Positions 1,884 to 27,385 of a stretch of 28,638 nucleotides of DNA are shown one piece after another. The notes under the pieces are model-generated. The model did no database searches, was not told the origin of the DNA, and worked only from the letters and a program-made list of their open reading frames with translations. The position numbers were made by a program, and so were the translations under genes. Location: positions 1 through 28,638 of IMG/VR virus record IMGVR_UViG_3300042691_040521. The stretch is one strand, 5' to 3'. The first letter of the stretch is position 1; each line of letters opens with the position of its first letter. This DNA is from a virus.

Positions 1884-2004
1884 AAAAATAAAAAAACGAA
1901 GTATAATTCAAATAGATTTGAGTGGTTGTAAAAATTCGAATGAATGTATTAAGGTAATAGAATTAATTACATCAGGTAAAGTTAAAATTAAAGTAAATGA
2001 ATAA
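1876..2004 (+). CDS. Small basic hypothetical protein (42 aa)
   Basis: A 42-codon frame starting [18 protein letters not shown] overlaps the previous gene by 8 bases and the thymidylate synthase start by 8 bases. It is basic at the N-terminus, has two Cys residues and no membrane segment. Its start codon is supplied by the third junction repeat. No family is recognised. The double overlap favours a real translated link between the flanking genes, but shortness limits certainty. Confidence 0.45.
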
Positions 2005-2686
2005 TTTAGATAAAGAATATCAACACCTATTAGAATACATTTTAGGTAATGGAACAGAAAAGAAAGATAGAACAGGAACAGGTACATTATCAATCTTTGG
2101 TTGGCAAATCAGACATGACATGAAGGAAGGCTTCCCACTACTAACAACAAAGAAGATGGCTTGGAAGTCAATCGTAACAGAGCTGTTATGGTTTCTACGT
2201 GGTGATACAAATATCAAATATCTTTTGGATAATGATTGTATGATATGGGTGGGAGATGCATACAAGTCCTACTTAAAAGGAGGTCACACAAAGTGGTTGA
2301 AGCAAGCCGAATATGATGTCGAAGGATTTGGGAAGATGACTATACCTGTACCCTACTCACAAGAAGAGTTCATCAACAAAATCAAAACCGATGATGAGTT
2401 TGCAAAGAAGTGGGGTGAATTAGGACCGATATACGGTAAGCAATGGCGAGATTGGTGCGGTATTGATGAGATGTGGAATAACTTTGATGAGAATGGTGAT
2501 AAATTTGTCAGAGCATCTGTAAAACATATAGACCAAATCGCAAACCTAATCTCCGAACTCAAAACAAACCCAGACAGCCGTAGGTTAATGGTTAATGCTT
2601 GGAACGTTGCAGATTTGCCGGTTACTGATTATAGAACAGATGATGAACTTTATCGAGATTACTTAAAAGATATAGGAAAATCATAA
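1997..2686 (+). CDS. thyA: Thymidylate synthase, N-terminal part (interrupted gene)
   Basis: Clear ThyA-type synthase (dUMP + methylene-tetrahydrofolate to dTMP). Present are the dUMP phosphate-binding DRTGTGT (residues 24-30), [32 protein letters not shown], and [18 protein letters not shown] near residue 200. Homology ends abruptly there; the last 20 or so residues ([15 protein letters not shown]...) match nothing in the family. The catalytic Cys and folate-binding C-terminal half lie in a separate frame at 3616-4248. This polypeptide alone therefore cannot be active. Either a removable intron joins the parts, or the gene is broken, or the two halves assemble as separate chains. The GIY-YIG endonuclease between them points to insertion by a homing element. 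Confidence 0.9.
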
Positions 2687-2690
2687 AAAC

Positions 2691-2730
2691 TATTACCTTC
2701 CTTAGATATATAAATAAAAAGGAGGTAATA
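2691..2730 (+). promoter_or_regulatory. RBS-sequestering hairpin upstream of the homing endonuclease
   Basis: Bases 2691-2703 (tattaccttcctt) pair with 2719-2730 (aaggaggtaata) in a 12-bp stem with one bulged T. The 3' strand is the strong Shine-Dalgarno AAGGAGG, 10 bases before the ATG at 2736, so read-through transcripts should have a masked ribosome-binding site. The 15-base loop holds a late-promoter-like TATAAATA. Confidence 0.75.
2709..2716 (+). promoter_or_regulatory. T4-late-like promoter element TATAAATA in the hairpin loop
   Basis: TATAAATA is the T4 late promoter consensus. Transcription starting several bases downstream would begin near the Shine-Dalgarno and lose the 5' arm of the hairpin, freeing the endonuclease start. 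This matches the logic described for T4 I-TevI. The octamer alone is weak evidence in AT-rich DNA; the position is what makes it notable. Confidence 0.45.
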
Positions 2731-2735
2731 CCATT

Positions 2736-3635
2736 ATGGTTATCTATAAGACAACAAATTTAGTGAACGATAAGATTTACATAGGACAAGACAAATATAA
2801 CAATCCAAGATACCTTGGTTCCGGAAAAATTTTACATCTTGCTTTCAAAAAGCATGGTATAGAAAATTTCAGAAAAGAGATAGTTGAAGTATGCGAATCT
2901 CAAGAAATACTAAATCAACGTGAAGAATTTTGGATAAGTTACTATAACTCGACTGATAGGAAAATTGGTTACAATATCGCAAAAGGCGGAAGTGGCGGAG
3001 ACACTATATCAAATCATCCTGAGAAAGAACAAATAGGAAAGAGGCACTCAGATTGGATGAAAGAAAATAACCCAACTAAGGGTAGAAAGAAGACAGAGAA
3101 TGAGATTAAAAATTGGAAAAACTCTTATGTTGGCAAGTGGAAAGGTGAAAAGAATCCAAACTTTGGTAGTAAAAGAAGCGAATCCTCTAAAGAAAAAATG
3201 TCTGAAGAAAGGAAAAGGTGGTGGGTTAATTTATCAGAAAGTGAAAGAGAAGAAATAGGGAAAAAAATAAGTGAAGCAAACATAGGAAAATCTGGAAATT
3301 CTTGGACAGAGGAACAGAAAAAAGCACACTCTAAATGGATGAAAGAAAATAACCCATTTAAAGAAAAAACTCATACTGATGAAGTTAAGAAAAGAATATC
3401 CTTAGCAAATTCAGGAAAACCTAAGTCTGAAGAAACTAAAAGAAAGTTAAGTGAGGCAAACAAAGGGCATAAACCGGGAAATATAGTAAAGGTTCAAATT
3501 GATAATATCATTTATGAAAGTTTAACAGATGCTTCAAATAAGACTGGTATAAACTTGTCAACACTAAGGAATAGAATCAAATCAAAAAGCATTAAATACT
3601 TAAATTACAAAATATATGAAGACCCCTCTAAGTAA
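2736..3635 (+). CDS. GIY-YIG homing endonuclease with NUMOD3 repeats
   Basis: A 299-residue homing endonuclease. The N-terminal catalytic domain (residues 1-90) shows VIYKTTN...KIYIG, the GIY and YIG strands, then HGIENFRKE with the conserved Arg and NQREEFWISYYN with the metal-binding Glu. Residues 100-245 hold several NUMOD3-type DNA-binding modules (NPTKGRKKTE, NPNFGSKRSE, ANIGKS, NPFKEKTHTDEVKKRIS, SGKPKSEETKRKLSEANKG). Residues 250-295 resemble a NUMOD1/IENR1 helix-turn-helix (IYESLTDASNKTGINLSTLR). It cuts DNA to spread its own gene. It has an unusually strong Shine-Dalgarno for this genome, masked by the upstream hairpin. Its 3' end overlaps the start of the synthase C-part by 20 bases. 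Confidence 0.93.
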   Translation: MVIYKTTNLVNDKIYIGQDKYNNPRYLGSGKILHLAFKKHGIENFRKEIVEVCESQEILNQREEFWISYYNSTDRKIGYNIAKGGSGGDTISNHPEKEQIGKRHSDWMKENNPTKGRKKTENEIKNWKNSYVGKWKGEKNPNFGSKRSESSKEKMSEERKRWWVNLSESEREEIGKKISEANIGKSGNSWTEEQKKAHSKWMKENNPFKEKTHTDEVKKRISLANSGKPKSEETKRKLSEANKGHKPGNIVKVQIDNIIYESLTDASNKTGINLSTLRNRIKSKSIKYLNYKIYEDPSK

Positions 3636-4248
3636 AGAAGAGTTTTTACAAAAACTTAAAACGGATAAGGAGTTTAATTTTAGATACGGAAGAAAACATA
3701 TTACAGAAGGAAAAATGGTTCTCCCACCATGTCATTATGGATTTCAAGTTTATACGAGAGAGTTGAGTATGGAAGAAAGAGTATATATTTTTAATAATAA
3801 AAAAGAATCTGGGGAGGTAATTGTTCCTGAATTTAAGACAGTTGGGGATATGAATGGATGGACAAATAAATTACTAGAAGAAACTATACCAACCAGAGCA
3901 ATCTCTCTAATGTGGAATCAACGCTCAGTAGATACATTCCTTGGTTTACCATTCAATATAGCAAGTTATGGTTTGTTGTTAGAGATTATTGCTAAGGAAG
4001 TGAATATGATTCCTGACGAACTGATTGGTAATTTAGGTGATGTGCACCTTTACAGCAACCACATCGAGCAAGCTAAGGAGCAAATTGGAAGAGAGCCATT
4101 TGAGTTACCAAAATTAAAAATTGATTTATTTGATGAAAACAACCACTATATTGGAGATAAAGATGATATCTCTGAATATAACATTGAACAATTCAAATTA
4201 GAAAACTACCAATCACATCCAAGTATAAAAGCACCACTGTCCAATTAA
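3616..4248 (+). CDS. thyA: Thymidylate synthase, C-terminal part with a replaced N-terminus
   Basis: From residue 34 on this is the C-terminal half of thymidylate synthase: MVLPPCHYGFQVY with the catalytic Cys39, the dUMP-binding RAISLMWNQRSVDTFLGLP, NIASYGLL, GDVHLYSNHIEQ, and the C-terminal HPSIKAPLSN. Residues 1-33 are not what should precede it. TPLSKEEFLQKLKTDKEF is instead a third version of the segment found near residue 120 of the N-part and in the gene at 1533. The frame opens inside the endonuclease gene (20-base overlap). If an intron is spliced, the exon junction should fall near 3710, joining ADLP to MVLPPCH. If not, this is a separate chain with its own start. Confidence 0.88.
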   Translation: MKTPLSKEEFLQKLKTDKEFNFRYGRKHITEGKMVLPPCHYGFQVYTRELSMEERVYIFNNKKESGEVIVPEFKTVGDMNGWTNKLLEETIPTRAISLMWNQRSVDTFLGLPFNIASYGLLLEIIAKEVNMIPDELIGNLGDVHLYSNHIEQAKEQIGREPFELPKLKIDLFDENNHYIGDKDDISEYNIEQFKLENYQSHPSIKAPLSN

Positions 4249-8732: not shown

Positions 8733-9458
8733 ATGAAATTTTTAAGGTTAAGAAAAAGCAGCTATGGCAAACACACAATCTATAAAAATGATTGGCTAGA
8801 GTTTTGTACAGGATGGAAAAAAATAAATTTTAAGGTAGCCCCAGCAGGCTATTTCGATAACAGAGCACAGATTAGTTTTAGTCTAGGCTGGGGACAATTC
8901 TACATTCACATTCCTTTTATTAGAAGCAAGTATGACGAGTGTGATCCACCTCAATACGGATTCTATTTATATTCAATCTATGATTGGTTTCCTACCTCTT
9001 TTGTTCTTTGTCTAGGTAAGAGAACTAAATTTATCTATATGCCTTGGGATCATATATGGGTTAGAACATCTGCATTAAGAGTTGATGGTGGATGGGAACA
9101 TGAAACCACTATGGAAAAATTAGGAACTAGAAATAAAGAATTTTACAACAAGAAAAAATGGGACGGCATACTTTGGAGCGAGGCTTACCCCTACACTTAC
9201 GTTCTAAAAAATGGAACCGTACAGGAAAGAACTGCAACTCTAAAAGTCGAAGAAAGAGAATGGAGACCTCGTTGGTTTAAATGGACCCCATTATTTTCCA
9301 AAAAAAGAAGAACTATAGATGTTAGCTTTAACGATGAGGTTGGTGAAAGATCGGGTAGCTGGAAAGGTGGAACTTTGGGATGCGGATATGATCTATTACC
9401 AAATGAAACCCCACTGGAGTGTTTACGGAGAATGGAGAAGGAAAGAGAATTTAGATAG
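8733..9458 (+). CDS. Conserved phage hypothetical protein (241 aa)
   Basis: A basic, aromatic-rich soluble protein that fits a family of conserved hypotheticals in large phages. The N-terminal half is rich in beta-type segments (WGQFYIHIPFI, YGFYLYSIYDWFP). The C-terminal part carries the most conserved-looking stretch, DEVGERSGSWKGGTLGCGYD, then ETPLECLRRMEKER. No catalytic signature is known to me. Its partner at 27425 has a similar beta-rich, W/F-rich style but no clear alignment. Confidence 0.8.
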   Translation: MKFLRLRKSSYGKHTIYKNDWLEFCTGWKKINFKVAPAGYFDNRAQISFSLGWGQFYIHIPFIRSKYDECDPPQYGFYLYSIYDWFPTSFVLCLGKRTKFIYMPWDHIWVRTSALRVDGGWEHETTMEKLGTRNKEFYNKKKWDGILWSEAYPYTYVLKNGTVQERTATLKVEEREWRPRWFKWTPLFSKKRRTIDVSFNDEVGERSGSWKGGTLGCGYDLLPNETPLECLRRMEKEREFR

Positions 9459-9482: not shown

Positions 9483-9770
9483 ATGGCAAAACCCGAATCT
9501 CAATACAAAAGTTTTTTAAAAGAAAATCCGGATAGTAATTTCACTTTTGATGAGTGGAAGTCCTGGTTAGGTAATAAGATAGCCAGCGTTATAGTTAATC
9601 TAGGGGAGGATCAAAAGATTTGTCACAACTGCAAGCATTTGCTATCGATGATTGCTTTAGGTCAAGGACTAAGGTGCGGGCATCCTAATAAAACTCCAAA
9701 AAACTATATGATACCCAGCAAGTGGAGCACCTGCGAAATGTTTGTAAAGAAATCAAAAAAGAGTGCATGA
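9483..9770 (+). CDS. Small Cys-rich (probably zinc-binding) protein (95 aa)
   Basis: The C-terminal half has a four-Cys pattern: CHNCKHL, then LRCGHPN about 17 residues later, then STCEMF. This is a plausible single zinc site. The N-terminal half (FTFDEWKSWLGNKIAS) is helical. A good Shine-Dalgarno (AAAGGAG around 9459-9465) lies 17 bases from the ATG, farther than optimal. The stop overlaps the start of the next gene by 4 bases (ATGA), implying coupled expression. Confidence 0.75.
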   Translation: MAKPESQYKSFLKENPDSNFTFDEWKSWLGNKIASVIVNLGEDQKICHNCKHLLSMIALGQGLRCGHPNKTPKNYMIPSKWSTCEMFVKKSKKSA

Positions 9771-14514: not shown

Positions 14515-14712
14515 ATGGAAGCTCTTTACGACTATCTATTTTGGTACAATCATCACGATGGACTCTGGTACGCTGTTTGGAGAGAAACGCAGCTAGATTT
14601 CTTTAGTGGAAATCGGGAGAATTCTAAGTACTATAAATCTAAGGATCACTCTACCCTAGTTGAGATCATAACAAAACCAGGGATTCTCAAAAGTCTTAAG
14701 GAGAAGGATTAA
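14515..14712 (+). CDS. Small aromatic-rich hypothetical protein (65 aa)
   Basis: A soluble protein beginning MEALYDYLFWYNHHDGLWYA, then TQLDFFSGNRENSKYYKSK. The dense W/Y/F content resembles small phage proteins of unknown function. Its 3' end overlaps the end of the opposite-strand ParB-like gene by 4 bases, with no room for a terminator between them. Confidence 0.7.
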   Translation: MEALYDYLFWYNHHDGLWYAVWRETQLDFFSGNRENSKYYKSKDHSTLVEIITKPGILKSLKEKD

Positions 14713-15164
14713 TAGTCAGGGAATAGTTCGTGCGGAATATTCGGATTGAAACTCATGAATTTTTTCACATCGTCTGGATCTTTAACTACTATTAGTTTTC
14801 CGTTCATCCCATCATCTCCGGCGATTCTCACCCTGTGATTTCCGTCTATTAGAACCCACTCTCCATTAGACGTCTGGTCCTCTGGATTTTTAAATCTAAC
14901 CAGAAGACCGATAGGGTCTTCATACCTCATTTCTCTTCTAATCTTAGAAATCTTATTAGGATCCACCATCGAAAGATTTTCGTCTGAATATCTTCGAAGG
15001 TAGTAATTTGGATACTCCTCTATTCTGGATTCTATCCCGCCTGAGTTAATTAACTTGTAAGCCTTCGAGACATTAAAGAGATATCTTCCATTATAGGCTG
15101 AGAAGATCTCATCTTTCAAAAAACTCTTTGCTTCGTTAACAAAATCTTTAAATCTTTTAAGCAT
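14709..15164 (-). CDS. ParB-like domain protein with a possible capsid-targeting leader
   Basis: The 151-residue protein ends in a ParB/sulfiredoxin-like core: ISKIRREMRYEDPIGLLVRF, then WVLIDGNHRVRIAGDDG (GNHR 108-111), the motif that binds nucleotide in ParB-type domains. It has no helix-turn-helix. The N-terminus MLKRFKDFVNE is one of several aromatic-plus-(L/I/V)NE leaders in this window, so cleavage after Glu11 in the prohead is possible. In that case the protein would be packaged and injected. The alternative is a simple regulator or nuclease-like protein. The start lies 3 bases after the upstream gene's stop. Confidence 0.75.
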   Translation of the reverse strand: MLKRFKDFVNEAKSFLKDEIFSAYNGRYLFNVSKAYKLINSGGIESRIEEYPNYYLRRYSDENLSMVDPNKISKIRREMRYEDPIGLLVRFKNPEDQTSNGEWVLIDGNHRVRIAGDDGMNGKLIVVKDPDDVKKFMSFNPNIPHELFPDY

Positions 15165-16654: not shown

Positions 16655-18022
16655 ATGTTTAAAGTGCAAGATTTTCAAGAATTTTTACATCTTAACGAAT
16701 CCAACGGGTCAGGTGCTAATATCATTATAGGAGATTCACAAACCCCCTTTATAGCTAAAAGGTCTCAGAATGTCAAAATGATCTCTAAAGTGGGATCCAA
16801 GTCTTCCCTCTGGTTAGGTGGGATGGGCTTAGGTTGGCTCAAAGATGCTGTTAGAGAATACCCAACAAGTCCTAATGTTTCAAATGTAGTTATCTGCATA
16901 GGAACCAACGGAGGATTCAACATCAGAGAGGACATTCAGGGTCTTTTCTCTCAACTTAAAAGGGCTTTTCCTAAAGCCAATTTTTACGCGGTTCAAGGAT
17001 CTTGGGGATGGGGAGGTAACAGATCAATAACTACTGATAGGGTCAAGACATATTACGACAAATTTGCCCAGCAAGGTGCCACTATAATAGAGCCGCCAAT
17101 TGGTAAAGTTAACGACCCCCACGGTAATCTTCCTGTCTATGCGCAAATAGGAAAAGCAATAGATTCTTATATAAAAACAGGCAGCACTTTTATCCCTGCA
17201 CCGGCTATCCAAACCACTTCGTCCGAAGTTCAGCAAAAGCAAGACGATGAAGAATCCCCTAAAGATATCGAGGGATTTCAAGACTGGCTGGACGAAAATA
17301 AACCAGGATGGGCTTGGGGATATACAGGTGGAGTTGTTAATAAATCCCCCGGCTATGGAAGATTCGGACCAAGAACAACTAAGGCTTGGAAAAGTTACGG
17401 CGAGGAGTATTTAAAAACCCAAAGAATACAAAGTTACACAAACATTAAATCGTCATTTTCTGGGAAAGACCCAGAAAAAGTGGATCCTATTATATCTAAA
17501 GATTTTAATTTTCACATCATACCAGACGGTAAGGGAACAAACTACAGAAGCGCACAGTTTACTCCAGACGTAATGAAAAAGATGTACGAGAAATATGGGA
17601 TCAAGAATGTGATTAGGTTTAACGGAGATGGTAAAGATTCTATTCACAGGAAGGGGAATATCCCAGTTTCAATTAAGCAAGAAGAAGACATTTGCAAGGA
17701 GATTGGATGTAACTTTTATAAACTATCTTCAACGAGGGATCAAGAAAAGGTTAACAAAATCCTATCAGAGGGAAACACCTTAGTGCACTGCGCTCATGGT
17801 GCAGACAGAACCGGCGGTAATGTTGGCGGGTATTTGTATAAGACCAAGAGAAATCCAGAACTCACAACACCAGAGTCAATCTGGGAATATACAACCAAGT
17901 ATAATGGATGGAACAGAATGGTGAAGACTAGTCCAGAGCAATTTAAAAATGGATATCTACAGCAGGCTCAAAAGTTCGGAGTGAGAGATTTTCTACATGC
18001 GTTAGAATTAGCTAAAAAATAA
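16655..18022 (+). CDS. SGNH hydrolase / tyrosine-phosphatase fusion with targeting-like leader
   Basis: A 455-residue, three-part protein. Residues 1-15 (MFKVQDFQEFLHLNE) look like a cleavable leader ending L-N-E. Residues 20-175 form an SGNH/GDSL hydrolase: IIIGDSQTPF with nucleophile Ser28, CIGTNGGFN, and NDPHGN carrying the catalytic Asp/His, typical of esterases that deacetylate glycans or lipids. Residues 205-257 (FQDWLDENKPGWAWGY..., GYGRFGPRTTKAWKSYG) resemble a peptidoglycan-binding-like module. Residues 285-455 hold a dual-specificity phosphatase core with LVHCAHGADRTGG: Cys379, Arg385, CX5R complete. I know of no standard protein with this order. If packaged in the head it could act on host proteins after injection; a tail-fibre-type role is the alternative. 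Confidence 0.85.
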   Translation: MFKVQDFQEFLHLNESNGSGANIIIGDSQTPFIAKRSQNVKMISKVGSKSSLWLGGMGLGWLKDAVREYPTSPNVSNVVICIGTNGGFNIREDIQGLFSQLKRAFPKANFYAVQGSWGWGGNRSITTDRVKTYYDKFAQQGATIIEPPIGKVNDPHGNLPVYAQIGKAIDSYIKTGSTFIPAPAIQTTSSEVQQKQDDEESPKDIEGFQDWLDENKPGWAWGYTGGVVNKSPGYGRFGPRTTKAWKSYGEEYLKTQRIQSYTNIKSSFSGKDPEKVDPIISKDFNFHIIPDGKGTNYRSAQFTPDVMKKMYEKYGIKNVIRFNGDGKDSIHRKGNIPVSIKQEEDICKEIGCNFYKLSSTRDQEKVNKILSEGNTLVHCAHGADRTGGNVGGYLYKTKRNPELTTPESIWEYTTKYNGWNRMVKTSPEQFKNGYLQQAQKFGVRDFLHALELAKK

Positions 18023-23007: not shown

Positions 23008-24600
23008 ATGACAAAACATCAGATGTTTAGAACTTTCACTGAGAAGCATCCCTTATTGGAAAGCATACAGGACGCTAAGAATTACCTATTAAAGAGGTAT
23101 GCAACGGCTAAAAACATTAAAACCACTGAAATCCCTGAGGACATTAAAATGAAGATTTTAAACGATCCCAACTTTGCTCTAATCAGAAAGATGGTAGAGG
23201 AGAAAAATTTTCCCGGCTATGCCCCACTTTTTGTTAAGTTTTTCTACGATCAGAAAGCCACTATCCAGGAATTACAGGAGATCGCAGATTTGCTTTCCAC
23301 ATATAAGACCAATATTGCTAAAGATCTGGACATGCCGGTTCTTGATTACGGAAAGATAGTAGCTACTGCTGAGGACGTAAGACCAGGATTTGAGGTTCTT
23401 GCGGATGAGCTTAGAAGCATTCCCAGGAAGATGAAGCTTAGAAAACTGTATAACAGACTTATCCCCGAAATGAAAGCTCAATTTAATAAGGCTTCAGAGG
23501 AGGAGATAAAAAAACTAGAGGAGATATCCAACCAGTTAGACAGTCTTCAGGATATAACAGATGTCGACAAAAACGGGAATAAGGTAACAAGAAACGCCTG
23601 GGAGGAATTCACAGGAAATGCTAGAAAATATTCCGACTATCGGACATATCCCCGTTTTAAAGATCACCGAATAGCTTTTTTAGAGATGATCTCAGATGCG
23701 GAAGATAAAATAGACAAATGGAACGTTGGGGAAGATGATCTTATAAAAGATCTTATGGCACTAGATCTAGAAGTTGGTATTATGTATAACAAGAAGGGAT
23801 ATATTGTGATCTCGGCTAGAACAAATAAAGCAGTTAAAGCCGTGGCTGGAGACACAAACTGGTGTATCAGAGACGAATACACATTCTGGAGATATGCAGC
23901 TTCCAAACCTGGGGAAGAGAGAGTTCAATTAGTTATAGCTAATAAAAATATTTCATCAGTTGATCCTTTGAGTTTGATCGGGATCACTGCTTACGCAGAT
24001 GGCAAAATTTACAGTTCCGCCGATAGGCCAAACAGTCAAATTCACTCAAGACTGGGGGCAAAAACAGTAAAAGAGCTTTTAGATAAAATAGGGTATCCTG
24101 ACGACCTTAAGGAGAGAATAATAAGAAACCTTAGAATCGAGGCTGATATTAAATTTAGTATCGAACAGTTTCTTAAAGAGGGATCCAAACTCACTGCTAC
24201 CTCTTTGATTGAAAGTCTTATTAAAGCCAGAAGGGGAATCCTAAAAGGCATCATGACAGAAGATCAATGGGAAAATATATCGGGTGTCGTTTCCTCGATT
24301 TTAGCTCAATCTTTAAATTTAAAACCATCAGAATTTATAAAGGTTTACAAAGAGAGTGGAATTCTCACAAGGTCGAATTTAAATGTTTTCGATTATGTTA
24401 TCGGAGACAGCTACACTTCTAAAGACATTAAAGAGATAGTTGAAAAATCCAAAGAGCAAATGGAACAGGTGAGGGAGTTAATCGAACTCAATAAAGCCGG
24501 ATTTATAAATCTCAATGATAATCCACAAACAGCAGAGTTGGTTGAGGAAGTTGAAGAGCACGGAGAATCGGTTATGAAAGAACTAGAATCTAAAATCTAA
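23008..24600 (+). CDS. Large hypothetical protein (530 aa) with a 'TNWCI...F..Y' motif
   Basis: I do not recognise the whole protein. Residues 1-200 are helical and charged (LRSIPRKMKLRKLYNRLIPE). Residues 255-345 form a beta-rich core: VGIMYNKKGYIVISARTNKA, then GDTNWCIRDEYTFWRYA, VQLVIANKN, and LIGITAYADGKIYSSADRPN. I associate a 'WC...F..Y' followed by a short hydrophobic strand with phage hypothetical proteins, with no function known to me. The leader MTKHQMFRTFTEKHPLLES is a weaker match to the leaders seen nearby. It starts after a divergent promoter-like region and probably leads an operon with the two genes that follow. Confidence 0.8.
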   Translation: MTKHQMFRTFTEKHPLLESIQDAKNYLLKRYATAKNIKTTEIPEDIKMKILNDPNFALIRKMVEEKNFPGYAPLFVKFFYDQKATIQELQEIADLLSTYKTNIAKDLDMPVLDYGKIVATAEDVRPGFEVLADELRSIPRKMKLRKLYNRLIPEMKAQFNKASEEEIKKLEEISNQLDSLQDITDVDKNGNKVTRNAWEEFTGNARKYSDYRTYPRFKDHRIAFLEMISDAEDKIDKWNVGEDDLIKDLMALDLEVGIMYNKKGYIVISARTNKAVKAVAGDTNWCIRDEYTFWRYAASKPGEERVQLVIANKNISSVDPLSLIGITAYADGKIYSSADRPNSQIHSRLGAKTVKELLDKIGYPDDLKERIIRNLRIEADIKFSIEQFLKEGSKLTATSLIESLIKARRGILKGIMTEDQWENISGVVSSILAQSLNLKPSEFIKVYKESGILTRSNLNVFDYVIGDSYTSKDIKEIVEKSKEQMEQVRELIELNKAGFINLNDNPQTAELVEEVEEHGESVMKELESKI

Positions 24601-24626
24601 ACCCACAGAAAAATTACATAATTCGA

Positions 24627-25862
24627 ATGAACCATCAGATGACAAAATTCAGAAAGATAAATGAAAACAGCTCAAGAAGCACCGATGAACTTTATAGGGC
24701 TTTTAATGATACTGACGCTGGTCGAGACCTATATGCTCTCGGGGTTAGAATGAAAAGAGAATATGGAATGTACGGATTAATTAAATATGAGAGGAGAGGA
24801 TATAATAAATCCATGCCCAGAACGGCGGCTTATAAAAACGAGGATACTGGTAAATTCCATATAGAACACTACTCAAGTAAACCAGGATTAGAGGTTTACG
24901 GGGAGAAGGATTTTGACACTCCTGAAGAACTATACAGACATCTTTGGATGAGACTAGCCAAAAACTTAATCCCAGCTTCACTTATTAGCAGAAGAGAAGC
25001 TGAAAAGAAGATAAATCTGGAAACGCTTTTCCCTATAGGACACGGATCAAGCGAAACTGATTTCTTCGGTAGAATAAAGCCACTATTGGGAGGGGAAGAA
25101 TTAATCAAACCCTCTAATGAAGATCTATTAATATCTGAAACTGTTCAGGAGTTAATTAAACTTGAATTGATCGGTACTAAGGGATATGGTTACGGATCAA
25201 AAAATAGAATTATTAGTGACATTTCATCAAAAGGAAATATCAAATACAACTTTTATACCGAAGCAACAATCAGAGTTTCTGAGATCTACTCTCGACTCAT
25301 TTCTCAAATATTAGGGGCATCACTTTTCAATTCCTGCTCAGGCTGGATTACAGGAAGAAACAATTACGAAAGCTCTTGGACGGTAACGAACACAAATAGA
25401 ATACCTTTAAATTCTGTTAACTTCAGAACAGGGGAGAACACACTGAGATGCCACGTACAAGACGTGGATATGATGGCTGCTGTTTTCTTGTCTATTATTA
25501 AAAGAACATTTAAAAGGGCAAGAGCATCTTCTAATCTAAGCGAAAGAATTCTCTTTAATCAGGGAGTCGGCTTGGTTCAAGAATTAAACGGACTGCTATC
25601 AGATTATTTCTTTATGGCATCATCAAATCTAGACCCCAGTGTTTTTCCGGACAGAGAATCTATGCAACATGAAGTGGTTAAGATGAACGCACATGCTCTT
25701 CTTATCAAATACCTTTTGACAAACGGATCTCCAGAGCTCAAGGCAGGAATCGCAGAAAATGAGGATCTTAAAAAGCTGGTGGCATATTCAACTTCAAGAG
25801 AGGATCTCAGCACATCAGCAAGAAAGCTGCTCAATCTTATTAAATCAATTAAGTACGTTTAA
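24627..25862 (+). CDS. Large hypothetical protein (411 aa) with targeting-like leader
   Basis: Unrecognised soluble protein. The N-terminus MNHQMTKFRKINE ends I-N-E at residue 13, matching the leader pattern of several neighbours. The following text (STDELYRAFNDTDAGRDLYA, GVRMKREYGMYGLIKYERRG) is charged and mixed alpha/beta. The C-terminal half is helical (AAVFLSIIKRTFKRARASSN, AHALLIKYLLTNGSPELKAG). No catalytic signature is evident. It lies 26 bases after the 530-residue protein gene and 2 bases before the zinc-ribbon gene. Confidence 0.8.
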   Translation: MNHQMTKFRKINENSSRSTDELYRAFNDTDAGRDLYALGVRMKREYGMYGLIKYERRGYNKSMPRTAAYKNEDTGKFHIEHYSSKPGLEVYGEKDFDTPEELYRHLWMRLAKNLIPASLISRREAEKKINLETLFPIGHGSSETDFFGRIKPLLGGEELIKPSNEDLLISETVQELIKLELIGTKGYGYGSKNRIISDISSKGNIKYNFYTEATIRVSEIYSRLISQILGASLFNSCSGWITGRNNYESSWTVTNTNRIPLNSVNFRTGENTLRCHVQDVDMMAAVFLSIIKRTFKRARASSNLSERILFNQGVGLVQELNGLLSDYFFMASSNLDPSVFPDRESMQHEVVKMNAHALLIKYLLTNGSPELKAGIAENEDLKKLVAYSTSREDLSTSARKLLNLIKSIKYV

Positions 25863-25864
25863 TT

Positions 25865-26098
25865 ATGAGAAATCTGAAGACATACGAAGAGGCAATCAAC
25901 GAAAGGAAAAGACAAGACGCCTGTGAAGGATGTGGTCAAGCTATCGGAGATCCAGAAAAAGAGTGTCCTAGATGCGGAAGATTCCCACACAAGGCTTATC
26001 ACGAGAGAGCAGCAGCCAAAACACTCGGAATAGCCAAATGGCTTCAATCCTCCCCCACCATGCAGCCCAATCAGAAGCTAAGCGGATCGGAACATTGA
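25865..26098 (+). CDS. Small zinc-ribbon protein with targeting-like leader (77 aa)
   Basis: The N-terminus MRNLKTYEEAINE is close to T4 internal-protein leaders (MKTYQEFIAE) and ends I-N-E at residue 13. It is followed by a zinc ribbon: CEGCGQAIG then CPRCGRFPHK, two CxxC knuckles. The rest is a basic helix (YHERAAAKTLGIAKWLQSS). If cut at Glu13 the mature part is a 64-residue zinc-binding peptide, small enough for head packaging. An intrinsic terminator follows, making it the last gene of the operon starting at 23008. Confidence 0.75.
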   Translation: MRNLKTYEEAINERKRQDACEGCGQAIGDPEKECPRCGRFPHKAYHERAAAKTLGIAKWLQSSPTMQPNQKLSGSEH

Positions 26099-26120
26099 TT
26101 CAACTCACCAAATAATTACA

Positions 26121-26148
26121 AATTCCAGCAGATGCTGGAATTTTTTTT
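26121..26148 (+). terminator. Intrinsic terminator
   Basis: AATTCCAGC-AGAT-GCTGGAATT is a 9-bp stem with a 4-base loop, followed by a run of T. It ends the operon 23008-26098. Confidence 0.93.
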
Positions 26149-26170
26149 GCTTCCTGCCATATAGTTCTAT

Positions 26171-26914
26171 ATGAAGACACTTGTACTTGGCGACACCCAC
26201 GGGCGTTCATTTTGGAAACTAGCAGTTCAAATAGAGAGACCTGATCGCGTGATTTTTATTGGTGACTACTTTGATTCCTTTGATATTGGGGGATTAGATC
26301 AATTAAACAACTTTCAGGACATAATCGAATTTAAAAAGACTGGAGGATGTGAAGTTGTTATGCTTATTGGAAATCACGATCATCACTACTTTCCAGAAGT
26401 TGGAGACACCGGCACTAGCGGATTTCAAGCCTTAATGTCTCCTTCTATCCAGTACGTGATAGATCAAAATCGAGAGCACTTGCAAATGGCTTACCGGATG
26501 GGCGAATTTCTATTTACACATGCCGGGGTAAGTAGCATTTTTATGGATAAAGCTTTCAAGGATCACTCCGGATGGAGCTTAGAAACTGTAGCAGAAGATC
26601 TAAACAATCTCTTTAAATATAAACCAAAATCTTTTATCTTTGGAGAATACTGCGATCCCACAAGATACACGGATCCGTCAGGAGACGACGTAAATCAATC
26701 TCCCATTTGGATTAGACCAAGATCACTTATGAAAGCCAACTATGACACTTTGAGAAAGGAGATTATTCAAGTGGTCGGTCACACCCAAAAAGATAAAATA
26801 GATATTAAAGGATTCTCTACTGGCGGTCGTTATTATATGATTGACACTCTTGGTACGAGTGGAGAATACTTGGTGATAGAAGAAGGATCAGTAAGAACAG
26901 GAAAAATAAAATAA
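26171..26914 (+). CDS. Calcineurin-like metallophosphoesterase
   Basis: A 247-residue phosphoesterase with the complete two-metal site: GDTHGR (7-12), FIGDYFDS (29-36), LIGNHDHHYF, FTHAGVSS, and VVGHTQKDK. THAG with GHTQ is characteristic of protein-phosphatase/ApaH-like members such as lambda phosphatase. Candidate substrates are phosphoproteins, dinucleoside polyphosphates or nucleic-acid ends; sequence does not decide. It is distinct from the LpxH-type enzyme at 5429 (no GHIH, no GDWVE). It starts 22 bases after the preceding terminator, so it likely has its own promoter in that gap. Confidence 0.9.
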   Translation: MKTLVLGDTHGRSFWKLAVQIERPDRVIFIGDYFDSFDIGGLDQLNNFQDIIEFKKTGGCEVVMLIGNHDHHYFPEVGDTGTSGFQALMSPSIQYVIDQNREHLQMAYRMGEFLFTHAGVSSIFMDKAFKDHSGWSLETVAEDLNNLFKYKPKSFIFGEYCDPTRYTDPSGDDVNQSPIWIRPRSLMKANYDTLRKEIIQVVGHTQKDKIDIKGFSTGGRYYMIDTLGTSGEYLVIEEGSVRTGKIK

Positions 26915-26923
26915 AACTAAACT

Positions 26924-27385
26924 ATGGAACAAAAAAGAATGAAAGGCGAATTAGCTAAAACTAAATCAGGAACTTGGGTGATTTGGTATTGGAAAGAAGA
27001 CGAAAACTCTTTCGAAGGGGGTAAAATCCCAGTTCATCCTGATATTCAGGAGAAAATGAATCAGCTGGATTTTTTAGATCATTTGAGCGAGGGTAAAGAG
27101 GTAGATTTTATACAGGTCGTCGATGAGAGGATATGCAAAGAGTTCTCAACTAATGAATACGCTAAGATCGTTCCGCCTAACGGAGAGGGGATTTCAGAAT
27201 TTAAAAAAATAAGGGCATCTATTATCAGACAACTTCAAAACGTGGTTTACGATAACGGAGATATAGCTGATATTGGAAACGAAGTGGGCATTGCCATAGC
27301 AAGACACTTTGACGAGAATCAAACAATAGAAGATTTTATGGCTGGGGTTAGGCACGGGGTGTCTTTAATTGACGGGACACACTAA
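26924..27385 (+). CDS. Hypothetical protein (153 aa)
   Basis: An acidic soluble protein. The N-terminus is beta-type (GELAKTKSGTWVIWYWKEDE) and the C-terminal half is helical (IRASIIRQLQNVVYDNGDIA). It ends GIAIARHFDE...FMAGVRHGVSLIDGTH, a pattern I have no name for. It starts 9 bases after the phosphoesterase stop. Confidence 0.75.
   Translation: MEQKRMKGELAKTKSGTWVIWYWKEDENSFEGGKIPVHPDIQEKMNQLDFLDHLSEGKEVDFIQVVDERICKEFSTNEYAKIVPPNGEGISEFKKIRASIIRQLQNVVYDNGDIADIGNEVGIAIARHFDENQTIEDFMAGVRHGVSLIDGTH

Follow-up and report, generated by a model that had tools for sequence, protein, structure and literature searches.

The window, a stretch of 28,638 nucleotides (positions 1 to 28,638 of IMG/VR virus record IMGVR_UViG_3300042691_040521), carries a homing endonuclease gene between the two halves of a thymidylate synthase gene (thyA), and the start of the endonuclease gene lies in a predicted hairpin with a promoter-like box in its loop (Table 1). 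Genes were called by a simple longest-ORF script, and certain start codons are possibly wrong. The endonuclease is 37% identical to I-TevI over 119 aa and matches the solved I-TevI domains 1i3j and 1ln0. Domains of the I-TevI family are present; the Pfam GIY-YIG match was below cut-off, and the alignment to I-TevI spans the GIY-YIG domain. The ORF of the thyA C-half begins within the end of the endonuclease ORF. A preliminary description of this DNA had overlooked two points: the gene that is split, thymidylate synthase, is also the one that hosts I-TevI, and the "Shine-Dalgarno" (SD) is part of a near reverse-complement copy of the thyA insertion point.

Table 1. Features of the split thyA locus in the window
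Feature	Positions	Strand	Basis
Thymidylate synthase N-terminal half with conserved tail	1997..2686	+	PF00303 positions 1-139, E 4e-49
Outer helix, 5' side; covers the thyA-N stop codon	2679..2686	+	Minimum-energy fold of 2670-2770
5' masking arm TATTACCTTCCTT, one bulged base	2691..2703	+	Fold; shuffles of box-spanning pairing
Promoter-like box GATATATA in loop	2705..2712	+	Motif enrichment in G001 and G010
Candidate transcript start region	2713..2717	+	Inferred from box-to-start-codon spacing elsewhere
3' arm with SD AAGGAGG (2719-2725)	2719..2730	+	Fold; SD accessibility prediction
Homing-site-like sequence TAATGGTATTACCTCCTT, possible autorepressor operator	2719..2736	-	17/18 to thyA junction
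I-TevI-like GIY-YIG homing endonuclease	2736..3635	+	NUMOD3 1.5e-11, I-TevI_DNA-bd 6.7e-8, weak GIY-YIG
Thymidylate synthase C-terminal half, N-terminal extension residues 1-32	3616..4248	+	PF00303 positions 140-265, E 2e-38

Intact thyA, with nothing between the halves, was found in the 123 loci fetched for comparison (100 distinct sequences). The same split point holds GIY-YIG inserts in L002/L003, L005 and L098, an HNH-like insert in L028, and other ORFs in L023, L025 and L100. The split-ThyA family (window 1997-2686 and 3616-4248, L003, L005, L018, L023, L024, L025, L028, L029, L098 and L100) shares a tail peptide on the N-half (DDELYQDYLK) and an extension on the C-half (LTKEEFLEKLKTDRDFNNRYG), and low pN/pS values for the tail (0.08) and the extension (0.15) across 11 split loci indicated that the split halves are translated. 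The locus resembles split genes of the Aeh1 NrdA type in having an insertion into an otherwise continuous gene and translation of both halves. The tail and extension are possibly docking peptides that join the halves. A second thyA split point, after GWRNW, was seen in L021, L022, L027 and L044, with similar tail and extension peptides and HNH-like inserts. L005 and L028 have a near-identical upstream control segment and thyA junction but encode a GIY-YIG and an HNH-like nuclease, respectively; the nuclease seems to have been swapped behind a retained regulatory segment. Elsewhere in the window, an ORF at 1533-1883 encodes a TQEEFINKCKTDNEFSEKWG peptide that is also found inside ThyA and in the split-ThyA extension, and 8733-9458 encodes an Acb3-type CBASS inhibitor (Pfam PF25187, E 2e-50).

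The preliminary description had placed AAGGAGG in the 3' arm of a 12-bp stem with one bulge, and every coordinate of this stem (2691-2703 paired with 2719-2730) was confirmed. The stem closes a 15-nt loop (2704-2718; AGATATATAAATA). In the predicted fold, the AUG of the endonuclease (ATG at 2736-2738) is also paired, in an outer helix (2679-2686 with 2734-2741). Folding of 2670-2770 gave z = -2.95, with 2 of 200 shuffles equally good, and the box-spanning duplex (-21.7 kcal/mol, z = -4.7) was matched by only 1 of 3000 dinucleotide shuffles. A plain fold restricted to -50..+8 was less striking (-11.5 kcal/mol, p = 0.06), so the significance hinges on the stretch that is folded. In partition-function calculations, the mean unpaired probability of the SD was 0.03 in read-through RNA and 0.57-0.62 in RNA starting at 2716-2720. 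By the energy model and the shuffles, the ribosome-binding site (RBS) and start codon are predicted to be sequestered by the stem in read-through RNA. Because only 5 nt separate the thyA-N stop codon from the 5' arm, ribosomes that terminate there might melt the stem for a short time. Among the seven box-bearing genes in the window, the endonuclease alone has such a stem (1/7).

The loop had been described as holding a late-promoter box, TATAAATA, which is that of T4. That location for a box stood, whereas the identity did not. TATAAATA is present at 2709-2716 and is overlapped by GATATATA, but as a word in the window it was not above chance (5 seen vs 3.3 expected); as the phage's own late box it was rejected and superseded by GATATATA. 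The latter is the dominant motif when the regions ahead of called genes are searched for words in excess (29 seen vs 0.68 expected) in a sister contig, G001 (126.8 kb, L178-L184), which is mostly colinear with the window and whose endonuclease is 69% identical to that of the window. In G001, GATATATA occurred 29 times in 7.5 kb of upstream sequence vs 7 times in 116 kb of coding sequence (p 3e-29), and in G010, the contig holding L098, it occurred six times upstream and never in coding sequence. Flavobacterium phage immuto (L175-L177, L198) and the contigs G002, G003, G004, G005 and G007 were instead enriched for (A)TATTTAT(A), and the endonucleases of this group have GATATTTATA or TATTTAT upstream, indicating that the box varies with the motif of the phage group.

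In immuto, strong enrichment of TATTTATA was seen in the regions ahead of genes, of which many encode virion proteins, and it precedes the terminase, portal, sheath, tube, hub and tape-measure genes. This argues for a late class, so that TATTTATA is likely a late promoter motif in that phage. GATATATA is likewise a likely late-class promoter as judged by its neighbours: in G001 and G010 it stands ahead of an endolysin gene, a gene for a YkuD protein and, two genes before a collagen-like tail fiber, a lysis-like gene, and no copy was found immediately ahead of the examined genes for the DNA polymerase, nrdA, the topoisomerase large subunit, thyA and RNA ligase. The lateness of the box claimed in the preliminary description is thus circumstantial, because few virion genes could be recognised in G001 and G010. 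A search for sigma-70 region 4 found none in the window, G001, G002, G003 or immuto, and a literature search on late promoter motifs of Bacteroidetes phages returned nothing usable. Other boxes lie as close as 11-13 nt before start codons; if those boxes are used, transcription would start no more than about 11 nt from the box G, which would put the start in the window at approximately 2713-2716 and exclude the 5' arm from the transcript. Boxes also cluster at approximately -12 and -30 from start codons in G001 (L178-L184) and in the window (14709-15164 and 16655-18022), and the -12 class would give leaderless mRNAs.

The same architecture recurred at other homing endonucleases. Among 32 box genes of G001 scored for box-spanning pairing, five were outliers (z -3.5 to -9.0; 0/200 shuffles as strong), and nothing else fell below z -1.7. 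Three of the outliers (37053, 12479 and 83255) are homing endonucleases by PHROGs and a fourth (60449) by homology to the window's enzyme; the fifth (25017) has a weak match (3e-5) to a homing endonuclease family and was counted as an endonuclease. With 25017 included, endonucleases made up 5/5 of the box genes with a stem vs 3/27 of those without one (Fisher p 3e-4). The five stems are unrelated in sequence, which argues for selection on the architecture and favours a delayed-expression switch. For four G001 endonucleases, the predicted accessibility of the start region rose from 0.11-0.40 to 0.53-0.83 when transcripts began at assumed start sites. A box-independent scan of 351 genes for start-region stems placed five endonucleases of the set among the nine strongest.

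Endonuclease 12479 lies between nrdA halves with intein parts on both sides (PF14890, below cut-off, E 4e-6 and 2e-6). This broken nrdA locus (L178:11342-14406 in G001) is a split-intein "fractured gene" whose endonuclease has a box-in-hairpin leader. Topoisomerase II is apparently broken likewise, with 25017 between intein-bearing pieces (L179:4470-7219, that is, G001 24470-27219), the intein there being read from the sequence and not from a profile hit. In G010, a 13-bp stem around GATATATA at 38271 (L310:18190-18654, that is, G010 38190-38654) precedes a small protein with a weak match to a phage hemolysin family, and the same box-in-stem design may therefore serve a possible lysis gene. 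In the TATTTATA group, 15-nt arms flank the box at five endonucleases downstream of intact thyA (L102, L105, L112, L148 and L158; z -3.7 to -5.7); these endonucleases are not independent cases because they are mutually related. The box-spanning scan cannot detect hairpins whose 5' arm overlaps the box, and its negatives are therefore not firm: it overlooked L006/L010 (plain fold marginal, p 0.05-0.13) and missed the T4-type I-TevI control (z -0.7), for which the plain fold gave p 0.007.

Conservation of the window's own stem was limited. Among thyA-type relatives, L004, L005/L007 and L028 keep the box and the SD and have no stem, and L098 has a weak stem (z -0.8). L006 and L010 form another small hairpin, marginal by shuffles, in which the 5' arm and the box overlap. 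The preliminary description had looked to relatives without both stem and box as evidence against its proposal; no such relatives were found, yet some lack the stem. It had also suggested a comparison of homologous loci for compensatory pairing, and this yielded no covariation, with no double change among three sequences; an apparent compensatory change in L098 was a register shift. The argument therefore rests on the recurrence of the architecture. A pattern scan for the box-SD cassette in viral contigs returned 92 stretches and no additional thyA-type endonuclease locus, a search for relatives of window 23008-24600 found none, and a full-text literature search combining Flavobacterium phage, homing endonuclease and thymidylate synthase returned no paper.

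These observations could be explained in several ways. The stem might be a chance pairing, with the box and start signal functioning without it; the stemless thyA-type relatives and the absence of covariation would fit such a view, but the shuffles (1/3000) and the independent recurrence at other G001 endonucleases make it quite improbable. The insert might instead be a self-splicing intron with the stem as part of the intron fold, since the td intron of T4 lies in thyA and the enzyme resembles I-TevI. We consider this very improbable: the tail and extension encode protein and show purifying selection, the ORFs leave only about 50 nt uncovered, and no Rfam match was obtained at gathering or up to E 10, so that a td-type group I intron, of which no core was found around the endonuclease, was rejected. 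A more serious alternative, although still rather unlikely, is that the inverted repeat is a DNA feature in which two opposed homing-site copies flank the promoter as an autorepressor operator pair; the SD would then be a reverse-read Pro-Pro CCT-CCT and the RNA pairing incidental. The reverse complement of 2719-2736 indeed matches an intact thyA at 17/18 positions exactly at the insertion junction (codons M-V-L-P-P), and 0/40 shuffles were as good, the thyA being the best match of 30 searched and the shuffles sharing that choice. For 8/8 thyA-type endonucleases tested, the best-match position was the insertion junction, but three of these matches (L004, L005 and L098) were individually not above shuffles. 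CCT-CCT is the Pro-Pro choice in 13/100 intact thyA genes, and this rarity means that common descent or additional selection for AAGGAGG is also needed. I-TevI is its own repressor, acting at an operator that resembles its homing site and covers its late promoter (PMC2988022), and the L102-type arm TAGGACTACCCTTTAA is nearly identical to TAGGACTGCCCTTTAA, which lies upstream of I-TevI in a T4-type phage. Compared with the T4 td intron site, the L102-type arm had its best match there (16/18), but not above shuffles alone. Against the operator pair, the homing-site likeness of the G001 nrdA, topoisomerase and 37053 stems was not above shuffles, although the targets there are less certain, and the 5' copy in the window has an extra base, which an RNA stem can accommodate but a protein-binding site less obviously. 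As a separate observation, the loci L102, L105, L112, L148 and L158 contain TAGGACTACC(C/T)TTTAA, 15/16 to the I-TevI upstream sequence of a T4-type coliphage (L308), and the endonucleases of this group carry an inverted copy of it, unlike T4.

The SD itself could also be the key element, read mainly by ribosomes without bS21, as in Flavobacterium rpsU, so that the endonuclease is tied to the ribosome state and the stem only tunes its expression. AAGGAGG as a word was not above chance in the window (6 seen vs 5.1 expected). The endonuclease nevertheless has the only 6-mer SD at -20..-4 among the 50 called genes, and the remark in the preliminary description that neighbouring genes mostly lack SDs was correct. 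With an assumed 16S tail sequence, which may differ from that of the window's host, the endonuclease ranked first in predicted pairing in G001, G002, G003 and G005 and second in the window; 6-mer SDs otherwise numbered 0-2 per genome in these. At window 9483-9770, an upstream GAAAGGAGATTGTGAT that adjoins the end of the previous gene was predicted to equal the endonuclease SD in the strength of its pairing with the 16S tail. The host of the window is probably a member of the Bacteroidetes as judged from sequence: the ThyA relatives include a Flavobacterium phage, and G003, G004 and G005 were enriched for TATCTTTG, which fits the Bacteroidetes promoter consensus TAnnTTTG. A specialised role for the SD in such a host is possible. 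Bacteroidetes ribosomes generally ignore SDs, the anti-SD being sequestered by bS21 and its neighbours, and F. johnsoniae ribosomes without bS21 use strong SDs (PMC9976891). G003 and G005 encode bS21, but no bS21 gene was above cut-off in the window, G001 or G010 (possibly fragments). Moreover, the other G001 hairpin endonucleases have no SD, and the SD may alternatively derive from the homing-site copy. Given this balance, we assign little probability to the SD as the key element.

The reading that we favour, and hold to be fairly probable, is that the segment is a delayed-expression switch like those of T4 I-TevI and mobE, attached to a homing endonuclease that splits thyA in a phage related to phages of Bacteroidetes. 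The stem, the motif enrichment, the recurrence of the architecture, the thyA split and the homing-site match are properties of the sequences, and from these we infer a late-class promoter, its start site, translational silencing, autorepression, host and timing. Under this switch, mRNA read through from upstream promoters would carry the 5' arm, leaving the SD and AUG paired, and both thyA halves would be made but not the endonuclease. Later, the loop promoter GATATATA would fire, and the transcript from approximately 2713-2717 would have no 5' arm, so that both the SD and the start codon would be accessible. The endonuclease may in turn repress its own synthesis by binding to the homing-site copy that the 3' arm contains. 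The preliminary description had likewise proposed that read-through RNA is silent for the endonuclease and that internally started RNA loses the masking arm. This control logic is well supported by comparative sequence and predicted SD accessibility, because the promoter-like motif is genome-wide in the sister phage, the architecture recurs with unrelated stems, and the SD accessibility is 0.03 vs about 0.6. The choice that it offered between convergent control and an acquired module proved not to be either/or: the SD/operator segment travels with the endonuclease family, whereas the box varies with the motif of the phage group and the stems vary with the endonuclease.

If the switch is real, T4-style control of homing endonucleases has a further occurrence in another phage lineage, which uses a promoter motif and stems of its own, and the arrangement would have been reached repeatedly by selection where a selfish endonuclease sits in an essential gene that is needed early. 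For an uncultured phage group the analysis also defines a promoter-like motif, GATATATA. It further describes a family of split thymidylate synthases whose tail and extension peptides are conserved, and offers a case for studying the function of a lone SD in a probable Bacteroidetes host. A broader and unlikely proposal is that one rule governs the lineage, in which essential genes broken by endonucleases (the split thyA, the split-intein nrdA and the intein-bearing topoisomerase) are combined with a start-hiding hairpin that has the phage's own promoter inside, and in which one short sequence at thyA would act at once as operator, hairpin arm and specialised SD for bS21-poor ribosomes late in infection.

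Fractured genes, in which split inteins are accompanied by a free-standing endonuclease, are a known system. The window resembles them in having the endonuclease between the halves of a broken essential gene, and the G001 nrdA locus is such a case; unlike in fractured genes, the thyA halves have no intein and carry tail and extension peptides. The nearly unique strong SD in an SD-poor genome recalls rpsU of Flavobacteriales, which is autoregulated by bS21-less ribosomes (PMC9976891), but here the gene belongs to a phage, and the SD is buried in a stem and is likely of homing-site origin. Control by an RBS hairpin and an internal promoter is established for T4 I-TevI, I-TevII, I-TevIII and segB and for Aeh1 mobE (PMC2988022). 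As with mobE in the split nrdA, a free-standing endonuclease splits an essential gene of nucleotide metabolism, an RBS hairpin is predicted and both halves are kept; the differences are a GIY-YIG and not an HNH enzyme, thyA and not nrdA, another phage lineage and promoter, and a split enzyme known here from sequence. The window is like T4 I-TevI in td in having a GIY-YIG endonuclease in thymidylate synthase, an RBS hairpin on long transcripts, an internal (here candidate) promoter that would give transcripts without the 5' arm, and a homing-site-like sequence over the promoter and RBS. In contrast to T4 td, no intron was found, thyA is split into two proteins at another insertion point, and the box GATATATA lies wholly in the loop, whereas the T4-type sequence has its promoter in the 5' arm.
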